DNA of 64,000 bases from Vibrio sp. YMD68. GTDB lineage: Bacteria > Pseudomonadota > Gammaproteobacteria > Enterobacterales > Vibrionaceae. Position 1 is the stretch's first letter. Each line of letters begins with the position of its first letter. The notes under the pieces were generated by a model, which ran no database searches, was not told the origin of the DNA, and saw nothing but the letters and a program-made list of their open reading frames with translations. This document shows positions 36,306 to 56,160 of the stretch, one piece after another. Location of the stretch: assembly GCF_029958905.1 (NCBI RefSeq), contig NZ_CP124615.1:104228-168227 (forward strand), given 5' to 3'. The position numbers and the translations under genes were made by a program.

Positions 36306-36734
36306 AAAATTGAATCTGTAGTTCGTCTTCCAATGGAAGATTCAGGTTTAGGTCACAATATCGTCCGGTTAAATAACCGAAACGTAGACTCAAAGAGAAA
36401 AGATCCTAATCGTTTCTTTCGACGTGAGCCAGTAGTGATCTATAACCCCGATAACGGCACAAAAGTAATTCGATATGTAATGGGCAACCCAGGAACAATG
36501 TCGATTACCAAAAATGCTGTTGGTCTTGATTACGATGCCGTTGATGCTCTTGGAGTGAAATTTAAAGAAGAGGTTTCACTGGAAATGCGGAGAGCTCGCT
36601 GGTGGGAAATTTACCAGTGGTTCTGGTTCCACCCTGACTTCTCTATTCGCTTATCAATCCGTCTTGGAGTGGTAGGCGCATTACTCGGCATTCTTGGTTT
36701 TTTCACTGGGATCACTCCCATCATTTTAGGCTAA
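36303..36734 (+). CDS. Tail-anchored hypothetical membrane protein
   Basis: 143 residues from ATG 36303. Soluble N-terminal 110 residues, aromatic linker (RARWWEIYQWFWFHPDFS), then a hydrophobic C-terminal segment (about 118-140). Precedes another small membrane protein. Unknown. Confidence 0.67.
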   Translation: MKIESVVRLPMEDSGLGHNIVRLNNRNVDSKRKDPNRFFRREPVVIYNPDNGTKVIRYVMGNPGTMSITKNAVGLDYDAVDALGVKFKEEVSLEMRRARWWEIYQWFWFHPDFSIRLSIRLGVVGALLGILGFFTGITPIILG

Positions 36735-36748
36735 CGCCTATCCAAAAG

Positions 36749-36804
36749 CTCAGAAGCTCCAGAAGGGTGCTTCTGAGCCCACTCTAGAAGGAAATAAGCT
36801 TATG
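36749..36804 (+). promoter_or_regulatory. Intergenic hairpin
   Basis: CTCAGAAGC (36749-36757) / GCTTCTGAG (36769-36777), 9 bp, between the two membrane-protein genes; SD AAGGA follows. Confidence 0.5.
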
Positions 36805-37050
36805 TATCAATACGATCATAAAAAACGAAATATTATTGTATCGGTTTTGACTGTTGTGGGTAGTTTGTGTGTTTTGGTGCCGCTTTTGGTCGCCATTTCG
36901 TTTGACTGGCCCCCGTTACTTACCGATATGGCCGCATGGTTTGAGAATGCAAAACAATATGCAGTAGCGCAGTTCTGGGGGCTCGTATTTGGAGTGCCTT
37001 GTTTATACATTGCATATCGCATTTATAATTGGCTGCCGATCATTCCTTAA
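36802..37050 (+). CDS. Small two-helix membrane protein
   Basis: 82 residues with hydrophobic segments at about 10-30 and 50-70. No family recognised. Probably expressed with the 36303 gene. Confidence 0.67.
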   Translation: MYQYDHKKRNIIVSVLTVVGSLCVLVPLLVAISFDWPPLLTDMAAWFENAKQYAVAQFWGLVFGVPCLYIAYRIYNWLPIIP

Positions 37051-37062
37051 TATTTCAATATC

Positions 37063-37129
37063 AAACCCTCGGGGGTGTATGTCCCTGTGGGGGCGTGCGC
37101 CCTCCATACTTTGTACGGAGGATACTATG
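37063..37129 (+). promoter_or_regulatory. Leader switch
   Basis: GGGGGTGTATG can pair with CGTGCGCCCTCC (several G-U); CCTCC pairs with GGAGG at the SD. Confidence 0.5.
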
Positions 37130-39619: not shown

Positions 39620-39624
39620 TAAAC

Positions 39625-39656
39625 AAAAACCCCGGCATTTTTGCTGGGGTTTTTTA
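39625..39656 (+). terminator. Rho-independent terminator
   Basis: AAAAACCCCGGC / GCTGGGGTTTTT stem (one G-U) with loop ATTTTT and a T-run. Confidence 0.88.
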
Positions 39657-39672
39657 CTTATGAGAACCAAAC

Positions 39673-39725
39673 GCCCTAAAAGGGCAAATAGACGTTTCGT
39701 GAACCATTTGGATTGGCGATAGACT
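39673..39725 (+). promoter_or_regulatory. Activator box and -10
   Basis: GCCC-TAAAA-GGGC (39673-39685) palindrome; TAGACT (39720-39725) 34 nt on. Located between a terminator and structured element E9. Confidence 0.5.
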
Positions 39726-39734
39726 AAAAAAAAT

Positions 39735-39779
39735 GTCGGCTTTGCTGACGTTGAAAGGTAGCTGGCCTACAAGCAGCAA
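39735..39779 (+). promoter_or_regulatory. Structured element E9 with pseudoknot (divergent)
   Basis: GTCGGC/GCTGAC hairpin, then pseudoknot AGG (39756-39758) / CCT (39766-39768) around TAGCTGG, with GCTG pairing to CAGC (39774-39777). The linker is shorter than in other copies, but the stem has again co-varied. Confidence 0.5.
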
Positions 39780-39881
39780 CTACATTCTGAATGGAATACA
39801 TTCCATCAGAAATCTGATTAAACATTTCGGTGTCAGGCCGAAAATACACCTCAAGAACAGTCCACAAGGACTCTCACAACT

Positions 39882-39951
39882 TAACCCACATGGGTACACG
39901 GGACCTATGTGGTAACTGTGTACCCTTCAAACTTCATTGGAGGATACTATG
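39882..39951 (+). promoter_or_regulatory. Leader switch
   Basis: H1 CCACATGG / CCTATGTGG; R1 GGGTACAC (39892-39899) pairs 8/8 with R2 GTGTACCC (39918-39925). R3 (GGATAC) pairing is weak. Confidence 0.55.
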
Positions 39952-40788
39952 TCAAATTCAAACTATGGATTCCTAGCACTTGCTTTGCGTCAACGATTGA
40001 TAAAACGCTGGTCACTGATGCATTCAGTACAGCCTGAATCAGTCTTGGAGCATAGTGCTACCGTTACGTTGCTTGCTCTTCTCGCTGGTCATGTCGCAAA
40101 CCAAAAGGGGAACAAGGTCGATCTTGCCAAAATGCTTTCCCACGCAGCACTACACGATGTGGCCGAAGTTCTCTGTCAGGATGTTGTGACGCCAGTAAAA
40201 AAGGCTAATGACACTTTGGCGAGGGAATTCGAGCGACTTGAAAAAGCTGCTGAGGAGCAGTTAATTCACACGCTACCTTTGGAGCTTCAAGGTGCAGTCG
40301 CGGAAGCATTTGCCCCAGGTGGCTATGAACAGCAACTGGTGAAAGCCTGCGATACCTACGCTGCATATATCAAGTGCAAACTTGAAGTGGCAGCTGGCAA
40401 TGCGTTGGAGTTCCAAGATGCTCTCGACAAGATGATTGGCGTTGTATCTCAGTTGAAATCTGATTTCCCTGAGATCGAAGTAATAGATCAATGGTTCGGT
40501 GCTGGACTTAACTTGTCAGTAGATAAATTGCTGTCATGTAGCGATGACGAAGGTTGCTACATCAAATTTGTTACTGATCAGCGTCCGGGAGAGCCAGATA
40601 TTCTTGCTGGAAATGAACAATCAGATCTTATTCTGACAGATCTCGAAGGCAAAGAGCTCAAACGAATCAAGCCAACTGCACCTTGGACTCATGAAACACT
40701 TTCCATGTTAACCATCTCTTCGGAATGGGCCCGTATGGGAGTTGAGGCATACCTTGGAAAGCAGTGGGTTGGGAGTACCGAAGTATGA
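39949..40788 (+). CDS. YfbR-like HD-domain protein with C-terminal extension
   Basis: 279 residues from ATG 39949. 'RLIKRWSLMHSVQPESVLEHS' and 'SHAALHDVAEVLCQDVVTPVKK' match the YfbR/HD-family 5'-nucleotidases (H...HD...D metal site). The first 190 residues are the HD domain; about 90 C-terminal residues are additional. A nucleotide-pool role would fit with the ferredoxin and primase. Its TGA overlaps the start of the transposon-interrupted gene (ATGA). Confidence 0.82.
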   Translation: MSNSNYGFLALALRQRLIKRWSLMHSVQPESVLEHSATVTLLALLAGHVANQKGNKVDLAKMLSHAALHDVAEVLCQDVVTPVKKANDTLAREFERLEKAAEEQLIHTLPLELQGAVAEAFAPGGYEQQLVKACDTYAAYIKCKLEVAAGNALEFQDALDKMIGVVSQLKSDFPEIEVIDQWFGAGLNLSVDKLLSCSDDEGCYIKFVTDQRPGEPDILAGNEQSDLILTDLEGKELKRIKPTAPWTHETLSMLTISSEWARMGVEAYLGKQWVGSTEV

Positions 40789-40840
40789 ATAATAATGACT
40801 TCAAACTAGTACAAAGAAATACAGATGAATGGGACAAAAT
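40785..40840 (+). pseudogene. 5' fragment of a small gene split by the transposon
   Basis: ATG 40785 overlaps the stop of the HD gene. The reading (MNNNDFKLVQRNTDEWDK) runs into the left transposon end. Joining it to 54520 after removing the transposon and one AAAAT copy restores an open frame of about 77 residues. Confidence 0.85.
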
Positions 40841-41024
40841 GGGGTTTTGCGCCCACTTCAGCGAAAAGTCCAATGTGAGCCTACAGCCCTTTATTTATAA
40901 GGGCCGGCAGGGATCGCTTACTCTCTAATATCCTTCTTAAGCCACCAGTTCGACCATGCTATCCTCTCTCCAAGGTTCTAAGTTCTCAAGCAGTTTCTCT
41001 AGAACGATATTGTCTTTCTGAATA
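40841..41024 (+). repeat. Left 184-bp terminal inverted repeat
   Basis: Pairs with 54331-54514 over 184 bp without length change. It includes the last about 28 codons of tnpA, so the repeat is much longer than a normal 38-bp Tn3-family end. Confidence 0.92.
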
Positions 41025-43963
41025 CCAAAGGTGTAATTACCGGCAAGTTGGATATGACGCCATGCGACTGGAGATAAACCCGCTATCAGATTCACCACTT
41101 CCTGATTACCTTCTTGCTCAAACTTTTCAATCAGATTGGATAGCAAGGCTGAGTTATAATAAATGATGCAGTTAGCAATAATTCTCGCACAATCATTCCA
41201 CTGATCTATCTGATAATCATTGCCTCCACGGAATTGATTTCCATTGATTGACGCAATAGCTCGACGTAGTTGGTGGTAGGCTTCGCCACGGTTCAAAGCT
41301 TGCTGAACAAACTGTCGCAGGACTTTATCGTCAACATAATCGAGGATATAGAGGCATTTAATGATTCGGTCATACTCTCTAAGTGCGGCTAAGGTTCGAC
41401 TGTTCTGTTTGCCGTTCGACAGCTTGGTAATGATCGTACTTTGTGTCGTTGTCTTACGACTTAATGAGCAAATGATCCTTTGAATATTTTCCCACTCACG
41501 TTTGATTAGTGAGGTGTTAAACGGTCGGCGCAGCTTTAATGATACGGCCTCTCCATGCTCTATTTCGAACAAATCATGGAAGACATATTTAAACTTGGCG
41601 TATCGTGGAGCGAATTGGTAACCAAATAAGTCAAGGATCGCAAAGTTGACATTATTGACCCCATGAGTATCGGTTGCTAACGCTTTAGGCTGAATATCGC
41701 TGCTATTGTTATAGAGCAAATCAAAAGCATGATGTCCTTCATACTCGTTAGCTGAAATGATCTTGGTGTTGACAGGGACATGGTTTGACACCAACGTAAG
41801 GGCGGATACTCCTTTGCCTTTACGGAAGTATTTTGCTGAAAATCGAGCCTTGAATGTATTGATGCGGCAGGCATGCTTTTGACCATCAATACTACCAAAA
41901 GGGGTGGACTCGTTGATCGTGTAATGTTTAAAGATCGGAAGTTTTGCCAGAGCATCCGAGATCACATCATTGGCATCGCTTGTCGTCTCCGGCCGAATGT
42001 ATCCATCATTTACGGCTCTCAGAACACCAATGGCTCGATCAGATATCGATGACATATGATGCAATCCATAATTAGAGCCATTGCCAAAGATACAAGCGAG
42101 TAAGTCTTCTTCTCTCGCCTTACTTCCTAGCTTTTTAGTTCCGATACTTTTGAAGGCATCTAAGTAACCGGTTCTCTGATTAACGTAATCCATGATTTCG
42201 ATAATACCCATATGTTGAAGTTGGTTGTAAATCGGGTTATCAAGATCGTCTTTCCAACGCTTATTAGCTAACTTCCAAGTGAGCTGATTGGTGCGAGGTT
42301 GATGGATAACAAAATCATTGGCTCCATCATTGATATTGCGGCTGACTTGAGCCATTTTGTGACGCACGGATTTTGTTAATGTCGCAAGGGTTTGCTCGAT
42401 AGGAGCAATCAACTTATCTAACCCTGTATTGGCAACAAGATTTTCATTTTTTTTCCATTCAGTTATAGGGATAAGATCATCTTCGAGACGTTTGTTTTTC
42501 GCACTTTCGTTGACAAATATATGGTTGCTATCAAGCATTCGAGAGACTTTCTGGTACAAGTAATATTCAAAACGTCGATAGTTAACGCCTTCCTTATCAA
42601 CGATATAGTCTTTGTCCTGCTTAAGAAGTAACCTTTGGTCGGCAGTACAAAGGTGCTTTTCTTTTTGAAGCTCTGATTTTGCTATTTGTAATTGCGTAGA
42701 AAGTAATGTCTGACCTGGTTCACATTCAATATCTATCGCTAGAAAAAGAGGCCTAATCGAGTTTGAAATCTTTCTATATTGGCTGTCAATGTGTTGCCAT
42801 TCGTACTGTCGCTTATCAAAATTTTCCTTATTTAAGTGCTGACTAATGAGCTGGATTTCATCTTTGGAGAGCTTTTCAAAGGCATTTTGCCGAATATCAC
42901 CAAATTGAGTCTGGTCACTGACGGAGTCATCGACAAAGAGTCCAAGGAGGTGACCGGCGTGGGTCAACTTGTCTCTAACCACTTCAAGCTCATCTGCAAT
43001 CCGTTGTTTAGCAGCGGCAGAGGCGGATTCCCTTTGTTTTCTGGTCACATACTGAAACGCGGTGACTAACTTATCATTCGTTTCTTGATAACGGAAAAAC
43101 AAGTAACACACGATATATAGCATCCCTTGCCATTCAGGAAAACGACGGATCTTATACAGGGATTGGTGCCGAATAATGGACGCGTAGTACGTTAAGTTCC
43201 CTTGCGATAGCCCGAGTTCATTGATGAGCCCCTTTATCTCTTGATACACACTTTTTATTGTACTGTGTGTTTCAATTTCACGCATAAGTTCCGATGGGGT
43301 GAAGTCTTTCGCTGAGCCTTTCTGCGCTGAAAGTTGATTCAAGCGCCCTTTGGTATGCAGTATTTTTTTAAGTTGCATACGAGTGGTATCTGACATGGAA
43401 CTTGAGAGAATAGACTCTGTCCTCTGCCTCTCACTGGCTAGGACGGACGTGATCATGGTTTGTAATGTTGAATAACCGGCTAAGCCAATGCGTTTTTGGC
43501 CAAAGAAGGCTAAGCATTCATCAAAAATATACTTGGGATAAGTACAGATCGTTGCCACATCTTGTAGGCGTTCTAACAACGATTTCTCATCCACCTTAGA
43601 GAGTCGAGTAAAACCAAGGATTTCGTACATCTTCAATATCAATGTTGCTCGAGTACTTTTGGCAATAAGCGGGTATTTGGGCTTTCTGTTTGGAAAGTAA
43701 GTTGCATAAAGGTAATCGACATCTTGTTTGACATCTCGCAATCTGAACTTCGGTACGACTGGCTTAGCTCGGAAGTACCCAATAAGAAGTAGTAAATAGA
43801 TTCGAGTTTCAACTTTACTCAAGGTTGATAGCACCTTCTCTATACGGGGATCTACCGAAAAGTACTCTTCCCGCTCACTTTGATTAAAGACAGGGCGTGA
43901 ATACAGCTCATGGATCTCTTGATCTGTCAGAATTTGAATTCGGCTTGGCTTAACAGTTTGCAT
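40937..43963 (-). CDS. tnpA: TnpA, Tn3-family transposase
   Basis: 1008 residues, full length for the family. The C-terminal catalytic region contains the DDE residues: D in 'PFGSIDGQKHA', D in 'ALATDTHGVNNVNF' and E in 'QALNRGEAYHQLRRAI'. It catalyses replicative transposition into 5-bp-duplicated targets. Divergent from tnpR with a putative res site between. No frameshift seen. Confidence 0.95.
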   Translation of the reverse strand: MQTVKPSRIQILTDQEIHELYSRPVFNQSEREEYFSVDPRIEKVLSTLSKVETRIYLLLLIGYFRAKPVVPKFRLRDVKQDVDYLYATYFPNRKPKYPLIAKSTRATLILKMYEILGFTRLSKVDEKSLLERLQDVATICTYPKYIFDECLAFFGQKRIGLAGYSTLQTMITSVLASERQRTESILSSSMSDTTRMQLKKILHTKGRLNQLSAQKGSAKDFTPSELMREIETHSTIKSVYQEIKGLINELGLSQGNLTYYASIIRHQSLYKIRRFPEWQGMLYIVCYLFFRYQETNDKLVTAFQYVTRKQRESASAAAKQRIADELEVVRDKLTHAGHLLGLFVDDSVSDQTQFGDIRQNAFEKLSKDEIQLISQHLNKENFDKRQYEWQHIDSQYRKISNSIRPLFLAIDIECEPGQTLLSTQLQIAKSELQKEKHLCTADQRLLLKQDKDYIVDKEGVNYRRFEYYLYQKVSRMLDSNHIFVNESAKNKRLEDDLIPITEWKKNENLVANTGLDKLIAPIEQTLATLTKSVRHKMAQVSRNINDGANDFVIHQPRTNQLTWKLANKRWKDDLDNPIYNQLQHMGIIEIMDYVNQRTGYLDAFKSIGTKKLGSKAREEDLLACIFGNGSNYGLHHMSSISDRAIGVLRAVNDGYIRPETTSDANDVISDALAKLPIFKHYTINESTPFGSIDGQKHACRINTFKARFSAKYFRKGKGVSALTLVSNHVPVNTKIISANEYEGHHAFDLLYNNSSDIQPKALATDTHGVNNVNFAILDLFGYQFAPRYAKFKYVFHDLFEIEHGEAVSLKLRRPFNTSLIKREWENIQRIICSLSRKTTTQSTIITKLSNGKQNSRTLAALREYDRIIKCLYILDYVDDKVLRQFVQQALNRGEAYHQLRRAIASINGNQFRGGNDYQIDQWNDCARIIANCIIYYNSALLSNLIEKFEQEGNQEVVNLIAGLSPVAWRHIQLAGNYTFGIQKDNIVLEKLLENLEPWREDSMVELVA

Positions 43964-44155
43964 CGTTCTCCTTTTTCTCTATCAGCCCAAGTGAAAGGTC
44001 ATCATACTAGAGGTAAGATTGTACAATCGATGTTTTATGTGAAATTTAAGTATACTTATAAGTCATAAGTAAAAATTGACACGAAAAGCACATTTGTCAT
44101 AACCTATTTGTCATACAAGTTTAGATCATAACCTAAATGTCACCTTGAGGAACTT
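43964..44155. promoter_or_regulatory. Putative res site / divergent promoter region
   Basis: 192 bp between tnpA and tnpR. It contains the palindrome AAGTATACTT (44048-44057), a candidate crossover site, and repeated motifs TTTGTCATAACCTA / ATCATAACCTAAATGTCA (44092-44142) that could be resolvase-binding subsites. Placement is standard for Tn3-family res; the exact subsites are inferred. Confidence 0.6.
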
Positions 44156-44797
44156 ATGTACATCTTTGGATACTTAAGAGCATCAACTTCTGATCAGAAT
44201 GCAAAGCGTGCTCAGAAAGCTTTGCAGGAGTTTGTACAGCAAAAGGGCTTTCGAATAGCGGGTTGGTATATTGAGAATGAATCGGGAGCTTCTTTACAAA
44301 GACCAGAGCTTCTTCGATTGCTTGATGATGCGGCAATTGGTGATGCAATCATCATAGAGCAAATTGATCGTCTTTCTCGTCTTGATGAAGAAAGCTGGTT
44401 CACATTGAAAGAAATGCTGCACGAAAAAGAACTCAAGGTGATTAGTCTGGATTTACCAACCAGTCATGTTGCATTCTCTCCCCAAATCACCGATGAATTT
44501 ACCGGTTCGATGATCAAAGCAATAAATAGCATGATGATGGATATGCTAGCTGCTATCGCAAGAAAAGATTACCAAGATCGCCGTCGTCGTCAGGCTGAAG
44601 GAATAAAGAAAGCCAAAGAGGAAGGTAAATACAGAGGACGGCAAGCTGACTCTGATCTACACGAAAAGATCTATCAGCTACGAGTTATCAACGGGTTAAG
44701 TATCAGTGATACCGCAAAGTTGACAAATGTGTCTACTAGAACGGTGATTCGAGTAGCTCAAAAGTTGGCAAGTGAGCGTTCTGTGGCAGTAATTTAA
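44156..44797 (+). CDS. tnpR: TnpR, serine resolvase
   Basis: 213 residues. N-terminal catalytic domain 'YLRASTSDQNA' with nucleophile Ser10, 'IIIEQIDRLSRL' helix, and a C-terminal helix-turn-helix ('ISDTAKLTNVSTRTVIRV'). Resolves cointegrates at res. Complete. Confidence 0.92.
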   Translation: MYIFGYLRASTSDQNAKRAQKALQEFVQQKGFRIAGWYIENESGASLQRPELLRLLDDAAIGDAIIIEQIDRLSRLDEESWFTLKEMLHEKELKVISLDLPTSHVAFSPQITDEFTGSMIKAINSMMMDMLAAIARKDYQDRRRRQAEGIKKAKEEGKYRGRQADSDLHEKIYQLRVINGLSISDTAKLTNVSTRTVIRVAQKLASERSVAVI

Positions 44798-44820
44798 CCA
44801 TTTCATACGGAGAGACCAAC

Positions 44821-45124
44821 ATGGCTGTAACTGTATTAGGTATCGGCCTGATAAAAATGGGGTTGCACTCCATGAAGCTGCTCACAAAGGTAATATTGTC
44901 CTTTGTAAACCCAAAATAAGTCGCGCTAAACTATTGGAAACCTTAGCATACAAACCACCGTGTTTAATTGGAAGTTGTAGCAGCGCTTATTTTTGGGTTC
45001 GGACCTTGAAAAAGTAGGATATGAAGTTCGACCTATTGCTCCAACGTTTGTCTCTCCTTATCGGTTATCAGGCCGAACAAAAAAATGATGCAACTCACGC
45101 TCAAAGGATTTGTGAAGCGGTTTA
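44821..45124 (+). pseudogene. IS110-family transposase N-terminal remnant
   Basis: The three-frame reading gives MAVTVLGIGLIKMGLH, then 'NIVLCKPKISRAKLLETLAY' and 'LEKVGYEVRPIAPTFVSPYR ... NDATHAQRICEAV', the usual N-terminal order of IS110 DEDD transposases, interrupted by several frameshifts and cut short. Inactive relic. Confidence 0.75.
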
Positions 45125-45149
45125 ACGCCCTCATATAAAATCAAACACC

Positions 45150-45956
45150 TAAATAGCTGATCCGAATACTGCTACATTTTCGCGATACCGTGTCCGTTGC
45201 CAGGAAAAGGCGAAACGGTTTCCCTAAAATGCCATACCTTGCCAAGAAGTTCCCGCATGTTTCGGCAACTGTGATTACAGGTTACCGTTTCATGTAGTGC
45301 CAACCATAAGCGCTCTATCTTGTTGACCCAAGGTGAGTATACCGGTTGAAACAACAACCTGAACTTGGGGTTGCTCTTGAGCCAAGCCAGGGTTTTACGG
45401 CTCTTGTGAATGATGTAATTATCCAGAATTAGCGTGATAGTTTTGGCTTTGCGGTAATGTCGTTTGAGCTTTTCCAGCACTGTAATAAACAGCTCCGATG
45501 CCTTGCTGGCGCTGCTCACATAAAGCACTTTTCCTGTTTTGGTATGTAGCGCTCCTGCCAAGTAGTGCTTGCGGTTGTTACCCGGGGTGACAACACGTTT
45601 TTGCTGCCCTTTGGGCATCCAGTCCGCCCCGATTTCTCTGATTTCAGTCCATCGATGCCACATTGGGTGTACCAGCCCAACCATCGGCCTATGCTGGAGC
45701 GGGCTGCGCCGGTGATGTGCTGAACTTGGGTAACCGGCAGCCCTTGATGCAACATCAACATCGCCATCAGACGCCTGGCAAAGTGCTTATCGTTGGTTTT
45801 TTGAATCAATTTTTGCATGCGCTCAGCGCGGCATAGTGGTGCTAAGATAGCCATTCTCAGTCCTCAGCGAGTGGTGGGTTTGTTTGGCGATAGATCTGAT
45901 CGCTCAAACAGGACTGAGTTCCCTTCCTGTGATCTACTATTTGGAATAGCTATTTA
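45150..45956 (-). mobile_element. IS630-family insertion sequence, degenerate
   Basis: Imperfect terminal inverted repeats AATAGCTGATCCGAATACT-like (45151 onward) and its complement ending at 45954, flanked by TA on each side as expected for IS630. About 807 bp, shorter than full-length members; the transposase is broken. Confidence 0.75.
45172..45854 (-). pseudogene. IS630-family transposase, frameshifted and internally deleted
   Basis: N-terminal helix-turn-helix part (45516-45854: 'RLMAMLMLHQGLPVTQVQHI ... RSSIGRWL') and C-terminal DDE part (45172-45684: 'TITLILDNYIIHKSRKTLAWL', 'VNKIERLWLALHE') lie in different frames that overlap; the segment expected between them is missing. Confidence 0.82.
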
Positions 45957-45959
45957 GCG

Positions 45960-46418
45960 TAGCTCGCAAGTAGGACGTTCGCTTATACTGTGATAGGGGT
46001 ATAGGGGGGCCATAAGCCCCATAGTGTATATGGTTAACTGGTAGCGATGATACACCACAATGGCCTAACCTGTTGATAATAATGAAAATTGCAACATCAT
46101 GACTTTAAGCGCCGATTAATGCAAGGCAGACAAGCGCATGGCTTAATGTTGCACGAGATCGGAAAGTGAACTTGAATAATTCTAGTGTTCTGATAGCAAA
46201 GCAAATGCATCAAAACCAGTTATTATCTGTGGACTCTATTTTGTGAGTCTATTTCGATTTTTTGCGTTACCTTCTATCGATATTTATCTCTCTGAGACCG
46301 GCTATTTTGGTTTTCATTTTTTGGATAAGATGAGAGTTCTTTCTTTGTAGAAAATAAAGTGCAAACAGGTCAGATCAGTTGATTCAAGCCCCAATATCCT
46401 AGCAATGTTTGCTTAAAA
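45960..46418. other. Non-coding stretch upstream of the OmpA-like gene
   Basis: No open frame of note. A GGGG...CCCC hairpin lies near 45998-46020. It should hold the promoter of the surface cassette, but I see no convincing -35/-10 pair. Confidence 0.4.
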
Positions 46419-47492
<1,074 letters not shown>

Positions 47493-47503
47493 GTTGTATT
47501 ATT

Positions 47504-50500
47504 ATGAATAAATATTTTAAAACTTTATTTTTAGTGGTGGTTTTTCCACTACTAACGTTAATAGCCGGTTGTAATTCAGAAGGTGCTTTCTCTGAATCAA
47601 CCATAAAATTAGAACGTATTGACATCGTCGCATCGCCGATAACAACGAGAGGTGCGAGTCAACTGACACTTGCAGTAGGTAACAAGCAACCTTTCGAAGC
47701 GGTTGGTCACTACTCTGATGGCTCATCTCGCACATTGACGGATTTAAACGTGAGTGATTGGCACACAAGCGACCCTGATGTAGGACGCTTTGATGAGCCA
47801 GGAGTATTTACTGCGACTAACGTGGGTAATACGACCCTCACAGCCACGAAGGATGGCGTGACCAGTAATACGGTGGATGTGAATGTGTCGGCAGCGGTCA
47901 TTACATCGATTCAAGTGACGCCTTCGCCGGTCAACGTAGCAAAAGGTCAGACTCAGCAGTTAACTGCAACAGCGACATTCAGTGATGCGACGTCCTCTGA
48001 CGTGTCTAACTCAGTGACGTGGACTCCTATCGATACGGCGACTGCTACTGTGTCGGCAGCGGGTTTATTGTCTGCGGTTGAGGTGGGTAATACGACCCTC
48101 ACAGCCACGAAGGATGGCGTGACCAGTAATACGGTGGATGTGAATGTGTCGGCAGCGGTCATTACATCGATTCAAGTGACGCCTTCGCCGGTCAACGTAG
48201 CAAAAGGTCAGACTCAGCAGTTAACTGCAACAGCGACATTCAGTGATGCGACGTCCTCTGACGTGTCTAACTCAGTGACGTGGACTCCTATCGATACGGC
48301 GACTGCTACTGTGTCGGCAGCGGGTTTATTGTCTGCGGTTGAGGTGGGTAATACGACCCTCACAGCCACGAAGGATGGCGTGACCAGTAATACGGTGGAT
48401 GTGAATGTGTCGGCAGCGGTCATTACATCGATTCAAGTGACGCCTTCGCCGGTCAACGTAGCAAAAGGTCAGACTCAGCAGTTAACTGCAACAGCGACAT
48501 TCAGTGATGCGACGTCCTCTGACGTGTCTAACTCAGTGACGTGGACTCCTATCGATACGGCGACTGCTACTGTGTCGGCAGCGGGTTTATTGTCTGCGGT
48601 TGAGGTGGGTAATACGACCCTCACAGCCACGAAGGATGGCGTGACCAGTAATACGGTGGATGTGAATGTGTCGGCAGCGGTCATTACATCGATTCAAGTG
48701 ACGCCTTCGCCGGTCAACGTAGCAAAAGGTCAGACTCAGCAGTTAACTGCAACAGCGACATTCAGTGATGCGACGTCCTCTGACGTGTCTAACTCAGTGA
48801 CGTGGACTCCTATCGATACGGCGACTGCTACTGTGTCGGCAGCGGGTTTATTGTCTGCGGTTGAGGTGGGTAATACGACCCTCACAGCCACGAAGGATGG
48901 CGTGACCAGTAATACGGTGGATGTGAATGTGTCGGCAGCGGTCATTACATCGATTCAAGTGACGCCTTCGCCGGTCAACGTAGCAAAAGGTCAGACTCAG
49001 CAGTTAACTGCAACAGCGACATTCAGTGATGCGACGTCCTCTGACGTGTCTAACTCAGTGACGTGGACTCCTATCGATACGGCGACTGCTACTGTGTCGG
49101 CAGCGGGTTTATTGTCTGCGGTTGAGGTGGGTAATACGACCCTCACAGCCACGAAGGATGGCGTGACCAGTAATACGGTGGATGTGAATGTGTCGGCAGC
49201 GGTCATTACATCGATTCAAGTGACGCCTTCGCCGGTCAACGTAGCAAAAGGTCAGACTCAGCAGTTAACTGCAACAGCGACATTCAGTGATGCGACGTCC
49301 TCTGACGTGTCTAACTCAGTGACGTGGACTCCTATCGATACGGCGACTGCTACTGTGTCGGCAGCGGGTTTATTGTCTGCGGTTGAGGTGGGTAATACGA
49401 CCCTCACAGCCACGAAGGATGGCGTGACCAGTAATACGGTGGATGTGAATGTGTCGGCAGCGGTCATTACATCGATTCAAGTGACGCCTTCGCCGGTCAA
49501 CGTAGCAAAAGGTCAGACTCAGCAGTTAACTGCAACAGCGACATTCAGTGATGCGACGTCCTCTGACGTGTCTAACTCAGTGACGTGGACTCCTATCGAT
49601 ACGGCGACTGCTACTGTGTCGGCAGCGGGTTTATTGTCTGCGGTTGAGGTGGGTAATACGACCCTCACAGCCACGAAGGATGGCGTGACCAGTAATACGG
49701 TGGATGTGAATGTGTCGGCAGCGGTCATTACATCGATTCAAGTGACGCCTTCGCCGGTCAACGTAGCAAAAGGTCAGACTCAGCAGTTAACTGCAACAGC
49801 GACATTCAGTGATGCGACGTCCTCTGACGTGTCTAACTCAGTGACGTGGACTCCTATCGATACGGCGACTGCTACTGTGTCGGCAGCGGGTTTATTGTCT
49901 GCGGTTGAGGTGGGTAATACGACCCTCACAGCCACGAAGGATGGCGTGACCAGTAATACGGTGGATGTGAATGTGTCGGCAGCGGTCATTACATCGATTC
50001 AAGTGACGCCTTCGCCGGTCAACGTAGCAAAAGGTCAGACTCAGCAGTTAACTGCAACAGCGACATTCAGTGATGCGACGTCCTCTGACGTGTCTAACTC
50101 AGTGACGTGGACTCCTATCGATACGGCGACTGCTACTGTGTCGGCAGCGGGTTTATTGTCTGCGGTTGAGGTGGGTAATACGACCCTCACAGCCACGAAG
50201 GATGGCGTGACCAGTAATACGGTGGATGTGAATGTGTCGGCAGCGGTCATTACATCGATTCAAGTGACGCCTTCGCCGGTCAACGTAGCAAAAGGTCAGA
50301 CTCAGCAGTTAACTGCAACAGCGACATTCAGTGATGCGACGTCCTCTGACGTGTCTAACTCAGTGACGTGGACTCCTATCGATACGGCGACTGCTACTGT
50401 GTCGGCAGCGGGTTTATTGTCTGCGGTTGAGGTGGGTAATACGACCCTCACAGCCACGAAGGATGGCGTGACCAGTAATACGGTGGATGTGAATGTGTCG

Positions 50501-51724
50501 GCAGCGGTCATTACATCGATTCAAGTGACGCCTTCGCCGGTCAACGTAGCAAAAGGTCAGACTCAGCAGTTAACTGCAACAGCGACATTCAGTGATGCGA
50601 CGTCCTCTGACGTGTCTAACTCAGTGACGTGGACTCCTATCGATACGGCGACTGCTACTGTGTCGGCAGCGGGTTTATTGTCTGCGGTTGAGGTGGGTAA
50701 TACGACCCTCACAGCCACGAAGGATGGCGTGACCAGTAATACGGTGGATGTGAATGTGTCGGCAGCGGTCATTACATCGATTCAAGTGACGCCTTCGCCG
50801 GTCAACGTAGCAAAAGGTCAGACTCAGCAGTTAACTGCAACAGCGACATTCAGTGATGCGACGTCCTCTGACGTGTCTAACTCAGTGACGTGGACTCCTA
50901 TCGATACGGCGACTGCTACTGTGTCGGCAGCGGGTTTATTGTCTGCGGTTGAGGTGGGTAATACGACCCTCACAGCCACGAAGGATGGCGTGACCAGTAA
51001 TACGGTGGATGTGAATGTGTCGGCAGCGGTCATTACATCGATTCAAGTGACGCCTTCGCCGGTCAACGTAGCAAAAGGTCAGACTCAGCAGTTAACTGCA
51101 ACAGCGACATTCAGTGATGCGACGTCCTCTGACGTGTCTAACTCAGTGACGTGGGCTCCTATCGATACAGCTACGGCAACCGTGTCATCAACAGGGTTAT
51201 TGTCTGCGGTTGAATCGGGTAATACGACCCTCACGGCCACGAAGGATGGCGTGACCAGTAATACGGTGGATGTGAATGTGTGTAGTACTTTGGCTGGTCC
51301 ATGTATTGAACTCTTCGATACAGGTAGTGGTAAGTTGTTTACCAATTCACCGTCAAAGGCCTACTTAGACAGCATTGGCGGTAGTGCTACAGACGGTACT
51401 AATACTGAAAATGGAACTTACGGCCCAAGTGGTGATTTCTACCGATTCAACTGGACTAACGCAAATGCACTATGTACTACCTACAACACCCTTAGTCTCG
51501 GCGGACGAACTAACTGGCGTTTAGCGACAAGAGACGAGTTAAAAGTGGAGCTATACGACGCATCTGGTAATATGTTTACCGCGCGCGGTTGGCCGACCTT
51601 CCTCTTCTATTGGTCGGCGACGCCTGATGGTTCTGTCTATTACTACGTGGGCCTCGACACTGGCGCTGTCTTCAGCCTCAATCCGATCAACACGCTCTAC
51701 GCATCCTGCGTCTCAAATCCTTAA
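47504..51724 (+). CDS. DGR target: giant Ig-repeat surface lipoprotein with variable lectin-like domain
   Basis: 1406 residues from ATG 47504. Signal peptide with lipobox LIAGC (Cys near residue 24), so an outer-membrane lipoprotein. One divergent Ig-like module, then 13 tandem 87-residue Big_2-like modules ('ITSIQVTPSPVNVAKGQTQQ ... GVTSNTVDVNV'), and a C-terminal domain of about 145 residues ('GRTNWRLATRDELKVEL ... YWSATPDGS ... YASCVS') of DUF1566/Lcl type, related to C-type-lectin-like DGR targets such as Legionella LdtA. The variable residues lie in its last 45 positions. The repeats act as a stalk that presents the variable tip. Confidence 0.92.
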   Translation: MNKYFKTLFLVVVFPLLTLIAGCNSEGAFSESTIKLERIDIVASPITTRGASQLTLAVGNKQPFEAVGHYSDGSSRTLTDLNVSDWHTSDPDVGRFDEPGVFTATNVGNTTLTATKDGVTSNTVDVNVSAAVITSIQVTPSPVNVAKGQTQQLTATATFSDATSSDVSNSVTWTPIDTATATVSAAGLLSAVEVGNTTLTATKDGVTSNTVDVNVSAAVITSIQVTPSPVNVAKGQTQQLTATATFSDATSSDVSNSVTWTPIDTATATVSAAGLLSAVEVGNTTLTATKDGVTSNTVDVNVSAAVITSIQVTPSPVNVAKGQTQQLTATATFSDATSSDVSNSVTWTPIDTATATVSAAGLLSAVEVGNTTLTATKDGVTSNTVDVNVSAAVITSIQVTPSPVNVAKGQTQQLTATATFSDATSSDVSNSVTWTPIDTATATVSAAGLLSAVEVGNTTLTATKDGVTSNTVDVNVSAAVITSIQVTPSPVNVAKGQTQQLTATATFSDATSSDVSNSVTWTPIDTATATVSAAGLLSAVEVGNTTLTATKDGVTSNTVDVNVSAAVITSIQVTPSPVNVAKGQTQQLTATATFSDATSSDVSNSVTWTPIDTATATVSAAGLLSAVEVGNTTLTATKDGVTSNTVDVNVSAAVITSIQVTPSPVNVAKGQTQQLTATATFSDATSSDVSNSVTWTPIDTATATVSAAGLLSAVEVGNTTLTATKDGVTSNTVDVNVSAAVITSIQVTPSPVNVAKGQTQQLTATATFSDATSSDVSNSVTWTPIDTATATVSAAGLLSAVEVGNTTLTATKDGVTSNTVDVNVSAAVITSIQVTPSPVNVAKGQTQQLTATATFSDATSSDVSNSVTWTPIDTATATVSAAGLLSAVEVGNTTLTATKDGVTSNTVDVNVSAAVITSIQVTPSPVNVAKGQTQQLTATATFSDATSSDVSNSVTWTPIDTATATVSAAGLLSAVEVGNTTLTATKDGVTSNTVDVNVSAAVITSIQVTPSPVNVAKGQTQQLTATATFSDATSSDVSNSVTWTPIDTATATVSAAGLLSAVEVGNTTLTATKDGVTSNTVDVNVSAAVITSIQVTPSPVNVAKGQTQQLTATATFSDATSSDVSNSVTWTPIDTATATVSAAGLLSAVEVGNTTLTATKDGVTSNTVDVNVSAAVITSIQVTPSPVNVAKGQTQQLTATATFSDATSSDVSNSVTWAPIDTATATVSSTGLLSAVESGNTTLTATKDGVTSNTVDVNVCSTLAGPCIELFDTGSGKLFTNSPSKAYLDSIGGSATDGTNTENGTYGPSGDFYRFNWTNANALCTTYNTLSLGGRTNWRLATRDELKVELYDASGNMFTARGWPTFLFYWSATPDGSVYYYVGLDTGAVFSLNPINTLYASCVSNP
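47891..51283 (+). repeat. 13 tandem copies of a 261-bp coding repeat
   Basis: Period exactly 261 bp (87 codons). The first 12 copies look identical to the base on reading; copy 13 (51023-51283) diverges in its second half. Such arrays change length by recombination, altering stalk length in frame. Confidence 0.95.
51580..51715 (+). repeat. DGR variable repeat (VR)
   Basis: 136 bp aligning to 52491-52626 with no gaps. Codons that are AAC/AAT in the template read TTC, CTC, TTC, GTC, TAC, GGC, GAC, ACT, GCT, TTC, CTC, CTC here. One change (51687, T for template G) is not at an adenine. The last bases contain ACGCA-TCC-TGCGT, a small hairpin, in the position of an initiation-of-mutagenic-homing signal. 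Confidence 0.95.
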
Positions 51725-51772
51725 AGTTGAGCGTTTAGAGTTTAACGTTTTAGTTTTTAATTTTAATTTTTG

Positions 51773-51801
51773 AAGTGCCAGAGTTGCATCTGGCACTTTT
51801 T
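51773..51801 (+). terminator. Hairpin downstream of VR, terminator or DGR homing hairpin
   Basis: Perfect 10-bp stem AAGTGCCAGA / TCTGGCACTT with loop GTTGCA, followed by TTT. DGRs such as that of BPP-1 need a hairpin/cruciform shortly after VR; this one starts 57 bp after VR, so it may serve as terminator, homing element or both. Confidence 0.7.
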
Positions 51802-51815
51802 AGGAGGGAAGATAA

Positions 51816-52307
51816 GTGAATATTGAAACTAAATTAGCATTGGTTGAAAGCAGTCAACGTATTGTTGGTATAAAAGAGGGGATGTTTGTACGTTTCTATG
51901 AGCAATCACTCTTTGGTTGGCAGCAGTGGGTATCTAAACAGGACCAATTACCGACATTGAAGGTGTTAAGGAAAAAGGTTAAGAAATTGAATGGAAGAGA
52001 GGTGTTGTATGGTGGGCTTCCTATAGAATCATTAAAGCAAGTCGGAATTGATGTAGGTACAGAGGCGGTTATTGAGTTAGAAATAATCATCGATTTTTCT
52101 GAGTGGCAGTCTTGGAGGCAAGGGCAGTGTGCTCAAATGGACGATATTGAAGAGAAATCACCTTATAACCCTTGTGATGACGATCTGTTAAATCGTCGAT
52201 ATGTTCGATTGTTTTTACCCGAAGCCATCGTTAATAAAGTGATGATGACGAAAGCTTCAAGCTCTTCATTAGATTGGTTGTTGATTGCTGTCAAGCAAGC
52301 GATATAA
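51816..52307 (+). CDS. Hypothetical DGR-associated protein, 163 residues
   Basis: SD AGGAGGGAAG is close to the codon at 51816 (GTG). Soluble, alternating strands and helices, no signal peptide, no family recognised. It sits between the VR gene and TR, where other DGRs have an accessory or chaperone gene. Cotranscription with TR (184 nt downstream) is likely. Confidence 0.65.
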   Translation: MNIETKLALVESSQRIVGIKEGMFVRFYEQSLFGWQQWVSKQDQLPTLKVLRKKVKKLNGREVLYGGLPIESLKQVGIDVGTEAVIELEIIIDFSEWQSWRQGQCAQMDDIEEKSPYNPCDDDLLNRRYVRLFLPEAIVNKVMMTKASSSSLDWLLIAVKQAI

Positions 52308-52490
52308 CGTTTTAATAAGATGGTTCTCGGAAAATCGACAGGGTACATAGCGACAATGTCGTGCTCAGAGAATGTTAATGTTACGATGTTAACATGTGGG
52401 CCCTGGTATGTTATCGGCATTTATGACCTTATGGGTGTTCAAGGGAAGCGAGTCGAAAGGCAACACTTCGAGTTAAACAATAAATGCAAA

Positions 52491-52626
52491 CGCGCGCGGT
52501 TGGCCGACCAACAACAACTATTGGTCGGCGACGCCTGATGGTTCTAACTATTACAACGTGAACCTCAACAATGGCAATGTCAACAGCAACAATCCGAGCA
52601 ACACGAACTACGCATCCTGCGTCTCA
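52491..52626 (+). repeat. DGR template repeat (TR)
   Basis: 136 bp very rich in AAC codons when read in the VR frame (W-P-T-N-N-N-Y-W ... N-T-N-Y-A-S-C-V-S). It does not form part of a plausible gene on the plus strand. The mutable adenines are on the plus strand, so the template RNA must be transcribed rightward, towards the convergent RT gene. No clear promoter seen in the 180 nt upstream. Confidence 0.95.
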
Positions 52627-53912
52627 GGCCAACATAAAACATCCGGAGCCATCTTATTAAAGTGAAGACCTTTTTTTATTGTGAAGTGAGTGTAATAACC
52701 GTTATTGGGTAATAAATAACGTTTAAGTTCGCCAAAATTATTATGATATATTTGCTTTCTTAACTGGCAATGATTGGCTTGACTAAGTAGTCCATAATAA
52801 CTATTTATCGTTGATTGCATGGCTTTTAGTTGGATGTAAAGTGGTGCATAATGGATACCATGTTTACTCCATCTTCCACGACTTGGTCTAGACTTTAAAA
52901 CGACGTTAGTCGCGCCAGTGTCTAGAATTACATTAAAGTAGCGCAAACGCTCTTTTAATGATGAAATGGTGGTTTTGCGAACATGTTTATAATGGGGAAA
53001 TACACGAAATCCCAAGTAATCAAACCCCTCCTCAATAGGTGATAAATGCACCTTTGTAGGATGTAATTTTAATTGCAGGCGAGAAGTGAGATACCATTCA
53101 ATATGTTCTTTCCATTCTTGCAATTTTTCAGGCGAATTAGATAAGATAAATAAATCATCCATATACCGAACGTACCCCTTAACCTTCAGTGTGTGTTTTA
53201 TTTCGTGGTCAAGGTTGTTGAGGTAAAAATTACCGAAGAGTTGACTAGTAACGCTACCTATGGGCAACCCAACCTGTTCCGTATTGTTAAACTGTAGTTT
53301 CTTATGTAACGGGATTTGGTTAAGTAAGTATTGGTTTCCAGTTCGCTCGTTTTGTAGCTTCGTGGCATCCTGCTCTATGATCTTTTCTATCAGATTGGCT
53401 AGGCAATATTGGCGCAATGGGCTTAATTTTGAGTTGTAAATGAGATTGTGTAGTTGCGTTAGAAGCTCTCTTTTATTAATGCTATTGAAATAACTGTAAA
53501 TGTCGAGCTGTAGCCCCCAAGTATGTCGTGGTTGGCGCATTAGTTTTTGAACTTTTGCAATAGCAGCAAGAGTTCCTTTACCTTTTCTATTAGCATAGGT
53601 GTCATCAATGAATTGATTTTCCATGATAGGTACCAATTGTAGTGCAATCCACATTTGAGCTATGCGATCTCTAAATGCAGGGGCATATATTTCTCTAAGC
53701 TTAGGTTCTGTGATTGCAAAATGATGATAAGAATAAGGTTGATATGTATTAGTTAATATTTCGGTTGACAGCTCATGGCATAGTTTCGGGAACTTTAAAG
53801 CGTTAGCAGATTTTTGTTGACTGCTTCCCGAAGTTTTTACACATTGCAGCAACTCTGCTGCGAGTTGATGGTGATATTTAAGGTTTGAATTTTGAATAAA
53901 GAGTTTCGTCAT
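52608..53912 (-). CDS. DGR reverse transcriptase
   Basis: 434 residues. 'LQLDIYSYFNSI' (D137, motif A), 'VGLPIGSVTSQLFGNFYLN' with IGSVTSQ at 218-224 (the DGR/group-II-like variant of the RT motif, ending in Q), and YMDD at 250-253. C-terminal thumb-like region about 300-400. The last codons (52608-52626) lie inside TR, and the TAG stop is formed by TR sequence. Start ATG 53912 overlaps the 5' end of avd. Confidence 0.95.
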   Translation of the reverse strand: MTKLFIQNSNLKYHHQLAAELLQCVKTSGSSQQKSANALKFPKLCHELSTEILTNTYQPYSYHHFAITEPKLREIYAPAFRDRIAQMWIALQLVPIMENQFIDDTYANRKGKGTLAAIAKVQKLMRQPRHTWGLQLDIYSYFNSINKRELLTQLHNLIYNSKLSPLRQYCLANLIEKIIEQDATKLQNERTGNQYLLNQIPLHKKLQFNNTEQVGLPIGSVTSQLFGNFYLNNLDHEIKHTLKVKGYVRYMDDLFILSNSPEKLQEWKEHIEWYLTSRLQLKLHPTKVHLSPIEEGFDYLGFRVFPHYKHVRKTTISSLKERLRYFNVILDTGATNVVLKSRPSRGRWSKHGIHYAPLYIQLKAMQSTINSYYGLLSQANHCQLRKQIYHNNFGELKRYLLPNNGYYTHFTIKKGLHFNKMAPDVLCWPETQDA

Positions 53913-54308
53913 AATCGTCTCTACTATGATTTACAAAAGTTGTACAAATTGTATTGGAACCAACATCAACACTTACCCAAAGCATTTCGCTTTACAACAG
54001 GAGAACAAATCCTCAACGAACTCACGAAGTGTATTCGTTACTCTGTTCAAGCTAATTTGTACGGAAAATCTCTCGAAGGAATATTGCGAGCCCTAGATTT
54101 ATTACTAGAACTTAGTGCACTTTTAGAAACCGTACAAAGTTTATTAATGTTAGCTTGGGAATTAAAATTCTTGCCTCATGGCGCTCTGGTTGCTTTGACT
54201 GAACAACTTGGGCATGTATCAAGACAAACTACAGGATGGCGAAAGTGGTTCCAAGGAAAATCTCTCGAAATAAATGCACCTATTTCTTCTCCAAGTGGGA
54301 GCGCTTAG
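53892..54308 (+). CDS. avd: Avd-like DGR accessory protein
   Basis: 138 residues, starting at TTG 53892 (no in-frame ATG near; AAGG about 8 nt upstream). Four-helix-bundle pattern: 'LYYDLQKLYKLYWNQHQHLP', 'FTTGEQILNELTKCIRYSV', 'ILRALDLLLELSALLETVQS', 'ALVALTEQLGHVSRQTTGW'. Avd forms a pentamer that binds the RT and is needed for cDNA synthesis. Overlaps the RT 5' end by 21 nt in divergent orientation. Confidence 0.85.
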   Translation: MNKEFRHNRLYYDLQKLYKLYWNQHQHLPKAFRFTTGEQILNELTKCIRYSVQANLYGKSLEGILRALDLLLELSALLETVQSLLMLAWELKFLPHGALVALTEQLGHVSRQTTGWRKWFQGKSLEINAPISSPSGSA

Positions 54309-54330
54309 ATTAGAGCTACTGGCATATTAC

Positions 54331-54514
54331 TATTCAAAAAGACAATATTGTTCTAGAGAAACTGCTTGAGAACTTAGAGCCTTGGAGAGAGGAGAGCATG
54401 GTCGAACTGGTGGCCTAAGAAGGATATTAGCAAATAAGCCGTTCCCGTCAGCCCTTATAAATAAAGGGCTGTAGGCTCACATTGGACTTTTCGCTGAAAT
54501 GGGCGCAAAACCCC
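54331..54514 (-). repeat. Right 184-bp terminal inverted repeat
   Basis: Inverted partner of 40841-41024, differing at roughly 20 positions, mostly between tnpA end and the outer repeat. The outer 38 bp has one difference. Confidence 0.92.
54332..54418 (+). pseudogene. 3' stub of a second tnpA
   Basis: Reads IQKDNIVLEKLLENLEPWRE-ESMVELVA and stop, matching the last 28 residues of TnpA with one substitution (E for D). Synonymous differences to the left copy show it comes from a related but distinct transposon. Confidence 0.9.
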
Positions 54515-54519
54515 AAAAT

Positions 54520-54697
54520 GTGGAACGAATTGGCCCAACATCCATTAAATAATGGCGACGCGGTTTGTGAAGAGTCAGTTACTGGAGAGTGTTGGCAATA
54601 CATGGGTACGCAAGGTGGTAAGCACAATTTTCGCCACCGCTGTCACCCTAAAACAGGTTGCCGCCAATACCTAGATATCGACGCTGTGACCGTATAA
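54520..54697 (+). pseudogene. 3' fragment of the small gene split by the transposon
   Basis: Continues the 40785 frame after the AAAAT duplication: ...DKM-WNELAQHPLNNGDAVC... to TAA at 54697. Cys/His-rich end (ECWQYM, FRHRCHPKTGCRQY) may bind a metal. The restored gene would be about 77 residues, function unknown. Confidence 0.85.
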
Positions 54698-54712
54698 GTA
54701 AACCAATCTTTA

Positions 54713-54783
54713 AACCCTAGCGGGGCATCAAAGCCCCTTTGGGGCCTTGGTGTCCCTCAATGACATATTTGGAGGATTCCATG
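54713..54783 (+). promoter_or_regulatory. Leader switch
   Basis: H1 GGGGC/GCCCC with loop ATCAAA (54727-54732); R1 GGGGCATCAA pairs 10/10 (two G-U) with R2 TTGGTGTCCC (54747-54756); R2 pairs with GAGGATTCCA before the ATG with mismatches. Confidence 0.65.
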
Positions 54784-55167
54784 TCAATTTGTGATGAAGC
54801 AATGTCTAAGGCCACTAACAAAGGCTATTTGATAACCGCAGAAGGCTGCACTCCAGTCGATATTCCAAAAGAAGACGGATTACAAACTATGTATAAGCTA
54901 ATCGGCTGTAGCATGGTCCAGAGCTTTGATTGGGAGCTATCGAATGGAAAAACAGTAAGTCTTTATCTTGATGAAGAAGGACTGTTCAGTAGCGGTATCA
55001 AGCTCGGTTGTATATTACATGGTGCAGATTCACCTGTTGTAGGCAACATCATCGTGCTGGGTACTCCAGATTACAGCGATGGTGAAGGTTATGACACTTC
55101 TGCACCGGAAGACTTTGAAGAGCATCAGTTGATCGCTCGGAAAGGTCTTTTGGACATCTGTGCTTAA
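54781..55167 (+). CDS. DUF3846-like protein
   Basis: 128 residues from ATG 54781. 'GYLITAEGCTPVDIPKEDGL ... IGCSMVQSF ... LYLDEEGLFSSG ... VVGNIIVLGT' follows the DUF3846 layout found on plasmids and phages. Function unknown. Confidence 0.72.
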   Translation: MSICDEAMSKATNKGYLITAEGCTPVDIPKEDGLQTMYKLIGCSMVQSFDWELSNGKTVSLYLDEEGLFSSGIKLGCILHGADSPVVGNIIVLGTPDYSDGEGYDTSAPEDFEEHQLIARKGLLDICA

Positions 55168-55188
55168 CTATTAAATCCGAAATCATTA

Positions 55189-55257
55189 AAACCCTAAGGG
55201 GGCACCAATCCCTTAGGGGGAGGTGTCTCCTCAAAAAAAAACAAGGAGATAGCTATG
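55189..55257 (+). promoter_or_regulatory. Leader switch
   Basis: H1 CTAAGGG (55194-55200) / CCCTTAG (55210-55216), loop GGCACCAAT; GGCACC pairs with GGTGTC (R2, 55221-55230); R2 TCTCC pairs with GGAGA at the SD (55245-55249). Confidence 0.68.
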
Positions 55258-56160
55258 ATTAAAACTCATTTCAATAACCAACTGAAAAAACTTGGCTACC
55301 CAGAAGGTCTGACAATCGAGTACAGCCTTAGTTACTGTCAAGGTGATGGTATGAGTTTCTATGGAAACCTCGATGAGGATGATCTAGAGAAGCTTATGCT
55401 GCGAATTTATGACCCAAATACAGCAGGTGAAAACGCCGTACTTCGCGTAAAAAACCTTTTGGTTCGTAAAGAAGCATTATCTATGTTGGAAATATTAAGG
55501 GAAGCAGATATAGGATGTTGCAGAATGTCGATTGAGCGAAACTCTCATGGGCATCGGTACAGCCACTATAACTGCATGGATCTTTGTCATGAAGTCGATT
55601 TTGAAAGTTTCTCTGAGGAGCATTTTGAAGCGATTCGTGCCGCTGGTCTGGTAACAGGTGAAGTGACTGATGAGCACATCACTAGATGGCAAAGCATTTG
55701 GAACGACTTTGTGAGTCGTCTCGAACATGACATCAAATCTACATCCCAACAGCTTGAAGCCGAAGGCTATGCGCTGGTGGAAGGTACGCCATACGAAGAA
55801 GTTGTTTCCTGGGAGTTTAATACAGCTGACTACACAGTCCAGCTTAAAGAGCATCCCGAGCATGACTTTGATATTGGATGCTGGGACGAAGAGTTAGCAT
55901 TACAAACAATACAGGATATTGTTGATGGTAAGCAGCGCTATCTGAGGTTGGAAGCTAAGATCCTCGACCGAGAGACGGAAGAGGAACTAGCATCTGAATC
56001 TATAGGTGGCCTGGTTATAGATGTTAATGACAGAAGTTATGGAAGTTACCGCCGCGAATTGGTCAGTAATGCCATAGCAGAAGTTCGTAAAATACAGCTC
56101 AACAATGCTATATCAGAACATCATCAAATGCAGGAATCGTTAGTTCGTAAAGCGGCCTAA
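55255..56160 (+). CDS. Hypothetical protein, 301 residues
   Basis: The N-terminus 'LTIEYSLSYCQGDGMSFYG' resembles a segment found in several phage/plasmid proteins of unknown function. Acidic, soluble, C-terminal half helical. No catalytic motif seen. Confidence 0.68.
   Translation: MIKTHFNNQLKKLGYPEGLTIEYSLSYCQGDGMSFYGNLDEDDLEKLMLRIYDPNTAGENAVLRVKNLLVRKEALSMLEILREADIGCCRMSIERNSHGHRYSHYNCMDLCHEVDFESFSEEHFEAIRAAGLVTGEVTDEHITRWQSIWNDFVSRLEHDIKSTSQQLEAEGYALVEGTPYEEVVSWEFNTADYTVQLKEHPEHDFDIGCWDEELALQTIQDIVDGKQRYLRLEAKILDRETEEELASESIGGLVIDVNDRSYGSYRRELVSNAIAEVRKIQLNNAISEHHQMQESLVRKAA

Follow-up and report, generated by a model that had tools for sequence, protein, structure and literature searches.

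Components of the retroelement and its target protein

The window, a stretch of 64,000 nucleotides (nt) from Vibrio sp. YMD68 (NZ_CP124615.1:104,228-168,227, forward strand; all coordinates below are window positions), contains a diversity-generating retroelement (DGR) which a plasmid-located Tn3-family transposon carries as cargo. An initial annotation of this sequence had recognized the DGR; the Tn3 carrier, the inverted reverse transcriptase (RT), a CTAT tract, the gene orf163 and the description of this DGR type in 2012 were not part of it. The target gene and the DGR core consisted of the following features:

47504..51724, plus strand: DGR target, a lipobox protein with a Big_2 stalk and a C-type-lectin tip, 1406 amino acids (aa)
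47822..51281, plus strand: stalk array, 261-bp unit, 13.3 copies, 99% matches
51580..51715, plus strand: variable repeat (VR)
52491..52626, plus strand: template repeat (TR), in antisense overlap with the 3' end of the RT
52608..53912, minus strand: DGR reverse transcriptase, 434 aa
53892..54308, plus strand: Avd-like accessory protein, TTG start (PHROG "Avd protein of DGR", 3.6e-11)

The VR and TR aligned without gaps over 136 bp, with 22 differences, 21 of them among the 40 template adenines, exactly as first described. The probability of at least 21 of 22 differences falling on A by chance was 1.1e-10, and the sole non-A difference was a G to T change at position 51687. AAC or AAT represented 14 of the 45 TR codons in the target frame, and adenine changes in these codons cannot create stop codons. 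The RT translation contained the motifs IGSVTSQ and YMDD, also read earlier, and in a phylogeny this RT clustered with the DGR RTs of BPP-1 and Treponema, with moderate split support (87/77). Its best match among solved structures was 8ub7, and its relatives in phages amounted to 110 records, every one below 60% identity. The initial annotation had placed an Avd-like protein after the RT. The Avd-like open reading frame (ORF) is indeed present beside the RT; the operon order RT then Avd did not hold, because the ORF lies on the plus strand, divergent from the minus-strand RT, and overlaps the RT start. The RT strand is opposite to that of the TR, VR and target, which corresponds to the inverted DGR layout (Group 4 of DiGReF).

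The target ORF starts at GTG 47489 or ATG 47504 and ends at 51724. It encodes, as annotated, a lipobox protein (LIAG-C) with 13 Big_2 stretches and a DUF1566-like end, for which the Lcl_C profile scored 38.1 bits against a cut-off of 34.9. The last 145 residues were predicted to adopt a C-type-lectin fold (predicted local distance difference test, pLDDT, 97), the nearest fold being that of the Yersinia adhesin InvE. Sequence searches of the PDB with the tip and with the Avd-like protein gave no match. A C-type-lectin tip on an Ig-like stalk, as in InvE/intimin-type adhesins, was thus present, and relatives combined a stalk of the Big_1 or TSP3-like type with a tip of the Lcl_C or InvE_AD type. 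The Pfam scan of the target detected no barrel, the barrel sitting in a separate OmpA-like gene. The target is predicted to be a surface adhesin or receptor.

Several observations were made around the core and the target. A small hairpin with a 5-bp stem was visible at the TR 3' end (52610-52622), in a sequence common to the VR, and is possibly linked to homing. A terminator-like hairpin was read near 51772-51800 and is absent from the program's list. The 3' end of the RT was examined for synonymous constraint as a footprint of the template RNA; none was clear, since 5 and 3 codons varied in the last two bins and the mean was 5.7. The promoter scan returned fewer sites than in shuffled sequence and was not used. 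Orphan targets, whose tails are C-type-lectin-like and which had no RT seen in their vicinity, were found at L100 (in genome G140, two in tandem), L102 (G153), L105 (G114) and L106 (G023, at least 1984 aa with 21 Big_2 stretches). By reading, the Vibrio DGR loci L050, L051 and L047 adjoin fimbrial chaperone/usher-like ORFs.

Variation of the VR within a strain and between isolates

Thirteen of the 15 plasmid records carrying the cassette were compared (H3 and H5 were left out), together with a second copy on one of the 13. Across nine distinct VRs, 162 of the 168 differences from the corresponding TR were located at adenines, and TR marks outside adenines reappeared in the matching VR. One target, in copy L014, was frameshifted at residue 352.

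The eel isolate V. vulnificus GCU-01 harbored four copies on three plasmids, with one TR. When compared with copy L009, the other three GCU-01 copies showed 0 substitutions in the 6186 bp before the stalk, in the 329 bp before the VR and in the approximately 2790 bp after the VR, about 9.3 kb in all; copies L013 and L098 each showed one gap run of 7 columns. The VRs differed pairwise at 20, 22, 20, 22, 1 and 22 positions, of which 18, 21, 18, 21, 1 and 21, respectively, were at template A. The numbers of stalk motifs were 8, 9, 7 and 13. The stalk length changes by whole modules, the counts depending on assemblies of near-identical repeats.

VR variation on an unchanged TR was thus seen inside one strain, GCU-01, and across isolates. 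In the protein alignment, 85 of 114 tip proteins were kept, the other 29 falling outside the tail pattern. They displayed 83 distinct VR peptides, a distinctness inflated by the clustering of the source database at 90% identity. The mean entropy was 2.53 bits at the 24 codons whose first or second position is A, compared to 0.87 at the 21 others (P = 4.3e-6).

The same genome possesses a second, damaged inverted DGR with an orf163-like ORF, on the chromosome-like contig C2 (G000, ~1108000-1123000). Its RT is truncated, with a 353-aa ORF and, downstream of it, a separate fragment. Target L104 differed from the C2 TR at 26 sites, 24 of them at A; for target L047, 31 aligned sites differed, only 19 at A, and gaps were present. 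A third tail, found by eye in a 222-aa ORF of C2, was unmatched.

The Tn3-family carrier and its accessory genes

The transposon was delimited by the following features, the target duplications being deduced from the analysis of the ends and from the empty backbone in other plasmids:

40836..40840, no strand: left 5-bp target duplication, AAAAT
40841..40878, plus strand: left terminal inverted repeat, 38 bp; the likeness of both ends reaches further inward
40937..43963, minus strand: Tn3-family transposase, 1008 aa (DDE_Tnp_Tn3, 3.9e-120)
44156..44797, plus strand: serine resolvase (Resolvase N-terminal domain, 1.8e-24)
54477..54514, minus strand: right terminal inverted repeat, 38 bp, with 1 mismatch to the left repeat
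54515..54519, no strand: right 5-bp target duplication, AAAAT

The element covers 13,674 bp (40841-54514) and shows what is expected of Tn3: a transposase with a resolvase, inverted repeats of about 38 bp and a 5-bp target duplication. Between its ends lie the transposase, the resolvase, the OmpA-like gene and the DGR. The empty site was found in two DGR-free plasmids: NZ_KX957972 matched the left flank of 40841 at 99.6% and the right flank of 54514 at 99.8%, NZ_AP025157 matched them at 99.8% and 99.3%, respectively, and in both plasmids the two flank matches overlapped by 7 bp. L006 and L007, with split genes that are perhaps assembly errors and ends that were not detectable, were left out of the end analysis; L010, L015 and L016 are incomplete as transposon copies. 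Perfect 5-bp duplications flanked seven of the ten complete copies and were all different (AAAAT, TATTA, AAATT, ATGAT, ATACC, TACCT and CAATA). On the basis of these alignments, the DGR cassette is delimited as the cargo of a Tn3-family transposon with exact ends and duplications. The part of PMC8987985 available to us treats Tn3 and DGRs as separate topics.

The window also encodes the F-type conjugation proteins TraC, TrbC and TraN. The backbone on both sides (36500-40841 and 54514-56000) was near-identical to that of numerous plasmids of Vibrio and Photobacterium, several of which originate from shrimp or fish, and NC_016983 matched the right flank at 99.5%. Two overlapping minus-strand ORFs at 45172-45854, between the resolvase and the OmpA-like gene, resemble a split transposase by reading.

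Three further features accompany the DGR inside the element:

46419..47492, plus strand: OmpA-family protein, beta-barrel and OmpA domain, 357 aa from ATG ATA
46425..46498, plus strand: perfect (CTAT)18.5 tract opening the OmpA-like ORF, a predicted phase switch
51816..52307, plus strand: orf163, a conserved protein of inverted DGRs, between VR and TR

The OmpA-like ORF opens with ATG ATA and then reads through the CTAT tract. The distance from this ATG to the ATG of the signal peptide was 87 nt in the window, 75 in L004 (with an 8-bp unit), 51 in L005-L007 and 39 in L008, L009, L011-L014 and L098. The tract is therefore a short-unit repeat varying between copies (four lengths) and remaining in frame, with multiples of 3 in all 12 RT-bearing copies that have it. 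L004 and L005 showed no substitutions outside the stalk; the differences between them amounted to 24 bp of the tract and one stalk module. The decayed copy of G008, which had no RT visible alongside, was out of frame (47 nt). No OFF length was found in an otherwise intact locus among the 12 copies, so that the phase switch remains a prediction. The exact tract start occurred only in the genome itself in a scan of 227 genomes of the genus (1/227), and among the matches listed no title reported a phase switch of this sort joined to a DGR. OmpA-target pairs with no RT seen nearby, named by reading, were present twice in G153, once in G114 and once in G008 (with a shortened OmpA-like ORF), and this pairing favors a joint function.

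In the plasmid collection, orf163 was found in exactly the 15 DGR records, at 16 places, and the six Vibrio genomes with an RT of at least 50% identity all possessed it. Homologues occupied the same place in three loci with an RT of 55% identity (G081, G203 and G204, the latter two V. splendidus), in the C2 DGR and in Budvicia aquatica, whose DGR is also inverted (profile match 2.5E-15). No orf163 match was detected in five same-strand Gammaproteobacterial DGRs, two of them on contigs of just 3.3 and 6.0 kb. The gene was thus associated with 4/4 inverted RT lineages versus 0/5 same-strand DGRs, in a small sample. It was carried by 15 of the 227 Vibrio genomes, nine of which are without an RT of at least 50% identity (six of these nine were inspected), so that its action may not be confined to DGRs. 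A PDB sequence search with orf163 gave no match, and an AlphaFold2 model built from 14 alignment rows (pLDDT 48) was not used.

Interpretation and comparison with known systems

We propose that an inverted DGR on a Vibrio plasmid, borne there by a Tn3-family transposon, rewrites the predicted C-type-lectin tip of a predicted outer-membrane lipoprotein which is likely an adhesin, and we give this reading a probability of about 0.86. By analogy with known DGRs, the RT, together with the Avd-like protein, would copy the TR RNA and misread adenines, and the complementary DNA would replace the VR, the TR staying fixed. The lipobox is predicted to put the target in the outer membrane and the Big_2 stalk to keep the tip off the cell, where the 14 AAC/AAT codons would vary the binding face without creating stop codons. 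With less weight, slippage in the CTAT tract may switch the OmpA-like partner and, via polarity or coupling, the target located 12 bases downstream. As a guess, orf163 might serve the template transcript in the inverted layout. Taken together, these steps would make a self-moving adhesin with three dials, in which a DGR-written "split intimin" is spread by Tn3, a CTAT-switched OmpA partner presents a lipoprotein whose stalk is adjustable, and the inverted DGR depends on orf163, a hitherto unrecognized accessory protein offsetting the lost coupling of the RT and template transcripts; we regard this complete scheme as doubtful.

The DGR assignment of the initial annotation was borne out by the in-strain VR change, the RT grouping and the predicted lectin fold. 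The locus combines a DGR-clade RT with IGxxxSQ, A-specific TR/VR differences, an Avd-like protein, a C-type-lectin-fold target and VR change on a fixed TR in GCU-01. The DGR is very probably active, judging from these comparisons, and mutagenic reverse transcription of the TR very likely rewrites the tip. Several points weigh against this. Six of the 168 VR differences were not at A, the support of the DGR branch was only 87/77, and the Avd-like protein scored under the curated Pfam and NCBIfam cut-offs. Three copies in V. harveyi NH-LM1 had identical VRs (with 8, 8 and 5 stalk motifs), indicating that homing is not constant. Finally, the 5-bp duplication was absent in three of the ten complete copies (L012, L013 and L098). 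L013 and L098 are inverted relative to each other on one plasmid, TAACA being the left flank of L013 and the right flank of L098, which fits what one intramolecular replicative transposition would leave. The VR diversity could also consist of old alleles shuffled by recombination between plasmid copies, with an RT that no longer works. Such an origin would agree with the several copies per Vibrio strain, the VR shared in V. harveyi and the persistence of orphan targets without a nearby RT, but in GCU-01 the differences end at the VR, with unsubstituted flanks of 329 bp and ~2790 bp, and are nearly all at template A of one TR. This A bias makes recombination insufficient by itself, and we consider it very improbable.

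Two other alternatives concern the partner and the function of the target. The CTAT tract may be an untranslated leader, with OmpA starting at the later ATG and no phase switch, a serious possibility that falls somewhat short of even odds. The signal-peptide-like sequence starts at this later ATG, and by reading a clear ribosome-binding site is present at neither start; the tract is absent in the S. baltica and V. zhanjiangensis relatives, this end no longer exists in V. mediterranei, and the reading frame is kept in every one of the 12 RT-bearing copies possessing the tract, so that no switching was seen. Translation of the tract is however suggested by its lengths, which are all multiples of 3 despite units of 4 or 8 nt (a chance probability of about 1/81 if independent), by the out-of-frame length of the decayed RT-less copy, and by the 24-bp difference between L004 and L005 without substitutions outside the stalk. 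Rather than an adhesin, the target may be a sensor or a decoy, for example a phage-binding or self-recognition surface protein. C-type-lectin tips occur on receptors and phage fibers too, and variation would suit the recognition of any changing ligand; we find this role unlikely.

For this Tn3-borne DGR, plasmids assembled from long reads offer a natural experiment, in which sister copies are present in one strain and the rest of the element serves as an internal clock, making it possible to distinguish homing from inheritance. The diversification of a likely binding protein can in this way be followed in nature. The co-occurrence of orf163 and inversion makes an old oddity, the RT and its template on opposite strands, testable via one gene. 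A self-diversifying predicted surface binder moving between plasmids bears on the spread of surface traits among Vibrio.

The DGR type itself is not new, being known since 2012. "Inverted" DGRs were described in S. baltica OS155 (pSbal02), Vibrio sp. RC586 and P. angustum S14, in a work which also considered that DGRs are possibly mobilized by transposons (PMC3521204, DiGReF, in the part available), and the present RT is 94% identical to that of S. baltica OS155. According to the accessible part of PMC6642488, cassettes of the BPP-1 layout outnumber RT-inverted ones more than 20-fold, and the Pfam domain most often present in targets is DUF1566. The present DGR shares with DiGReF Group 4 the RT on one strand, the TR, VR and target on the other, and repeats of 130-139 nt; the accessible text of PMC3521204 reports a nearby transposase or integrase and Tn7-type sequences, whereas here a Tn3-family unit has defined ends and duplications. 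No mention of orf163, the CTAT tract or in-strain VR change was found in that same portion. This is therefore a known, rare DGR type, to which the Tn3 delimitation, the in-strain VR change and two testable new parts are added.

The DGR of Bordetella phage BPP-1 (mtd, avd, TR, brt) has in common with the present one A-specific TR/VR differences, a DGR RT, an Avd-like accessory and a VR ending a C-type-lectin target. The product of mtd has a C-type-lectin fold. The phage DGR is one-stranded with avd between target and TR, whereas in the Vibrio element this position is occupied by orf163, the Avd-like gene being located on the far side of the inverted RT. Legionella reportedly has a DGR lipoprotein, said to have been described by Arambula in 2013. 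Compared to it and to Treponema TvpA, the giant repeat stalk, the Tn3 carrier and the OmpA partner are features of the present system. InvE/intimin adhesins hold the barrel and the Ig stalk in one protein; relative to InvE, intimin and invasin, the present target differs in having a lipobox and a DGR-varied tip, and in that the barrel is encoded by a gene of its own.
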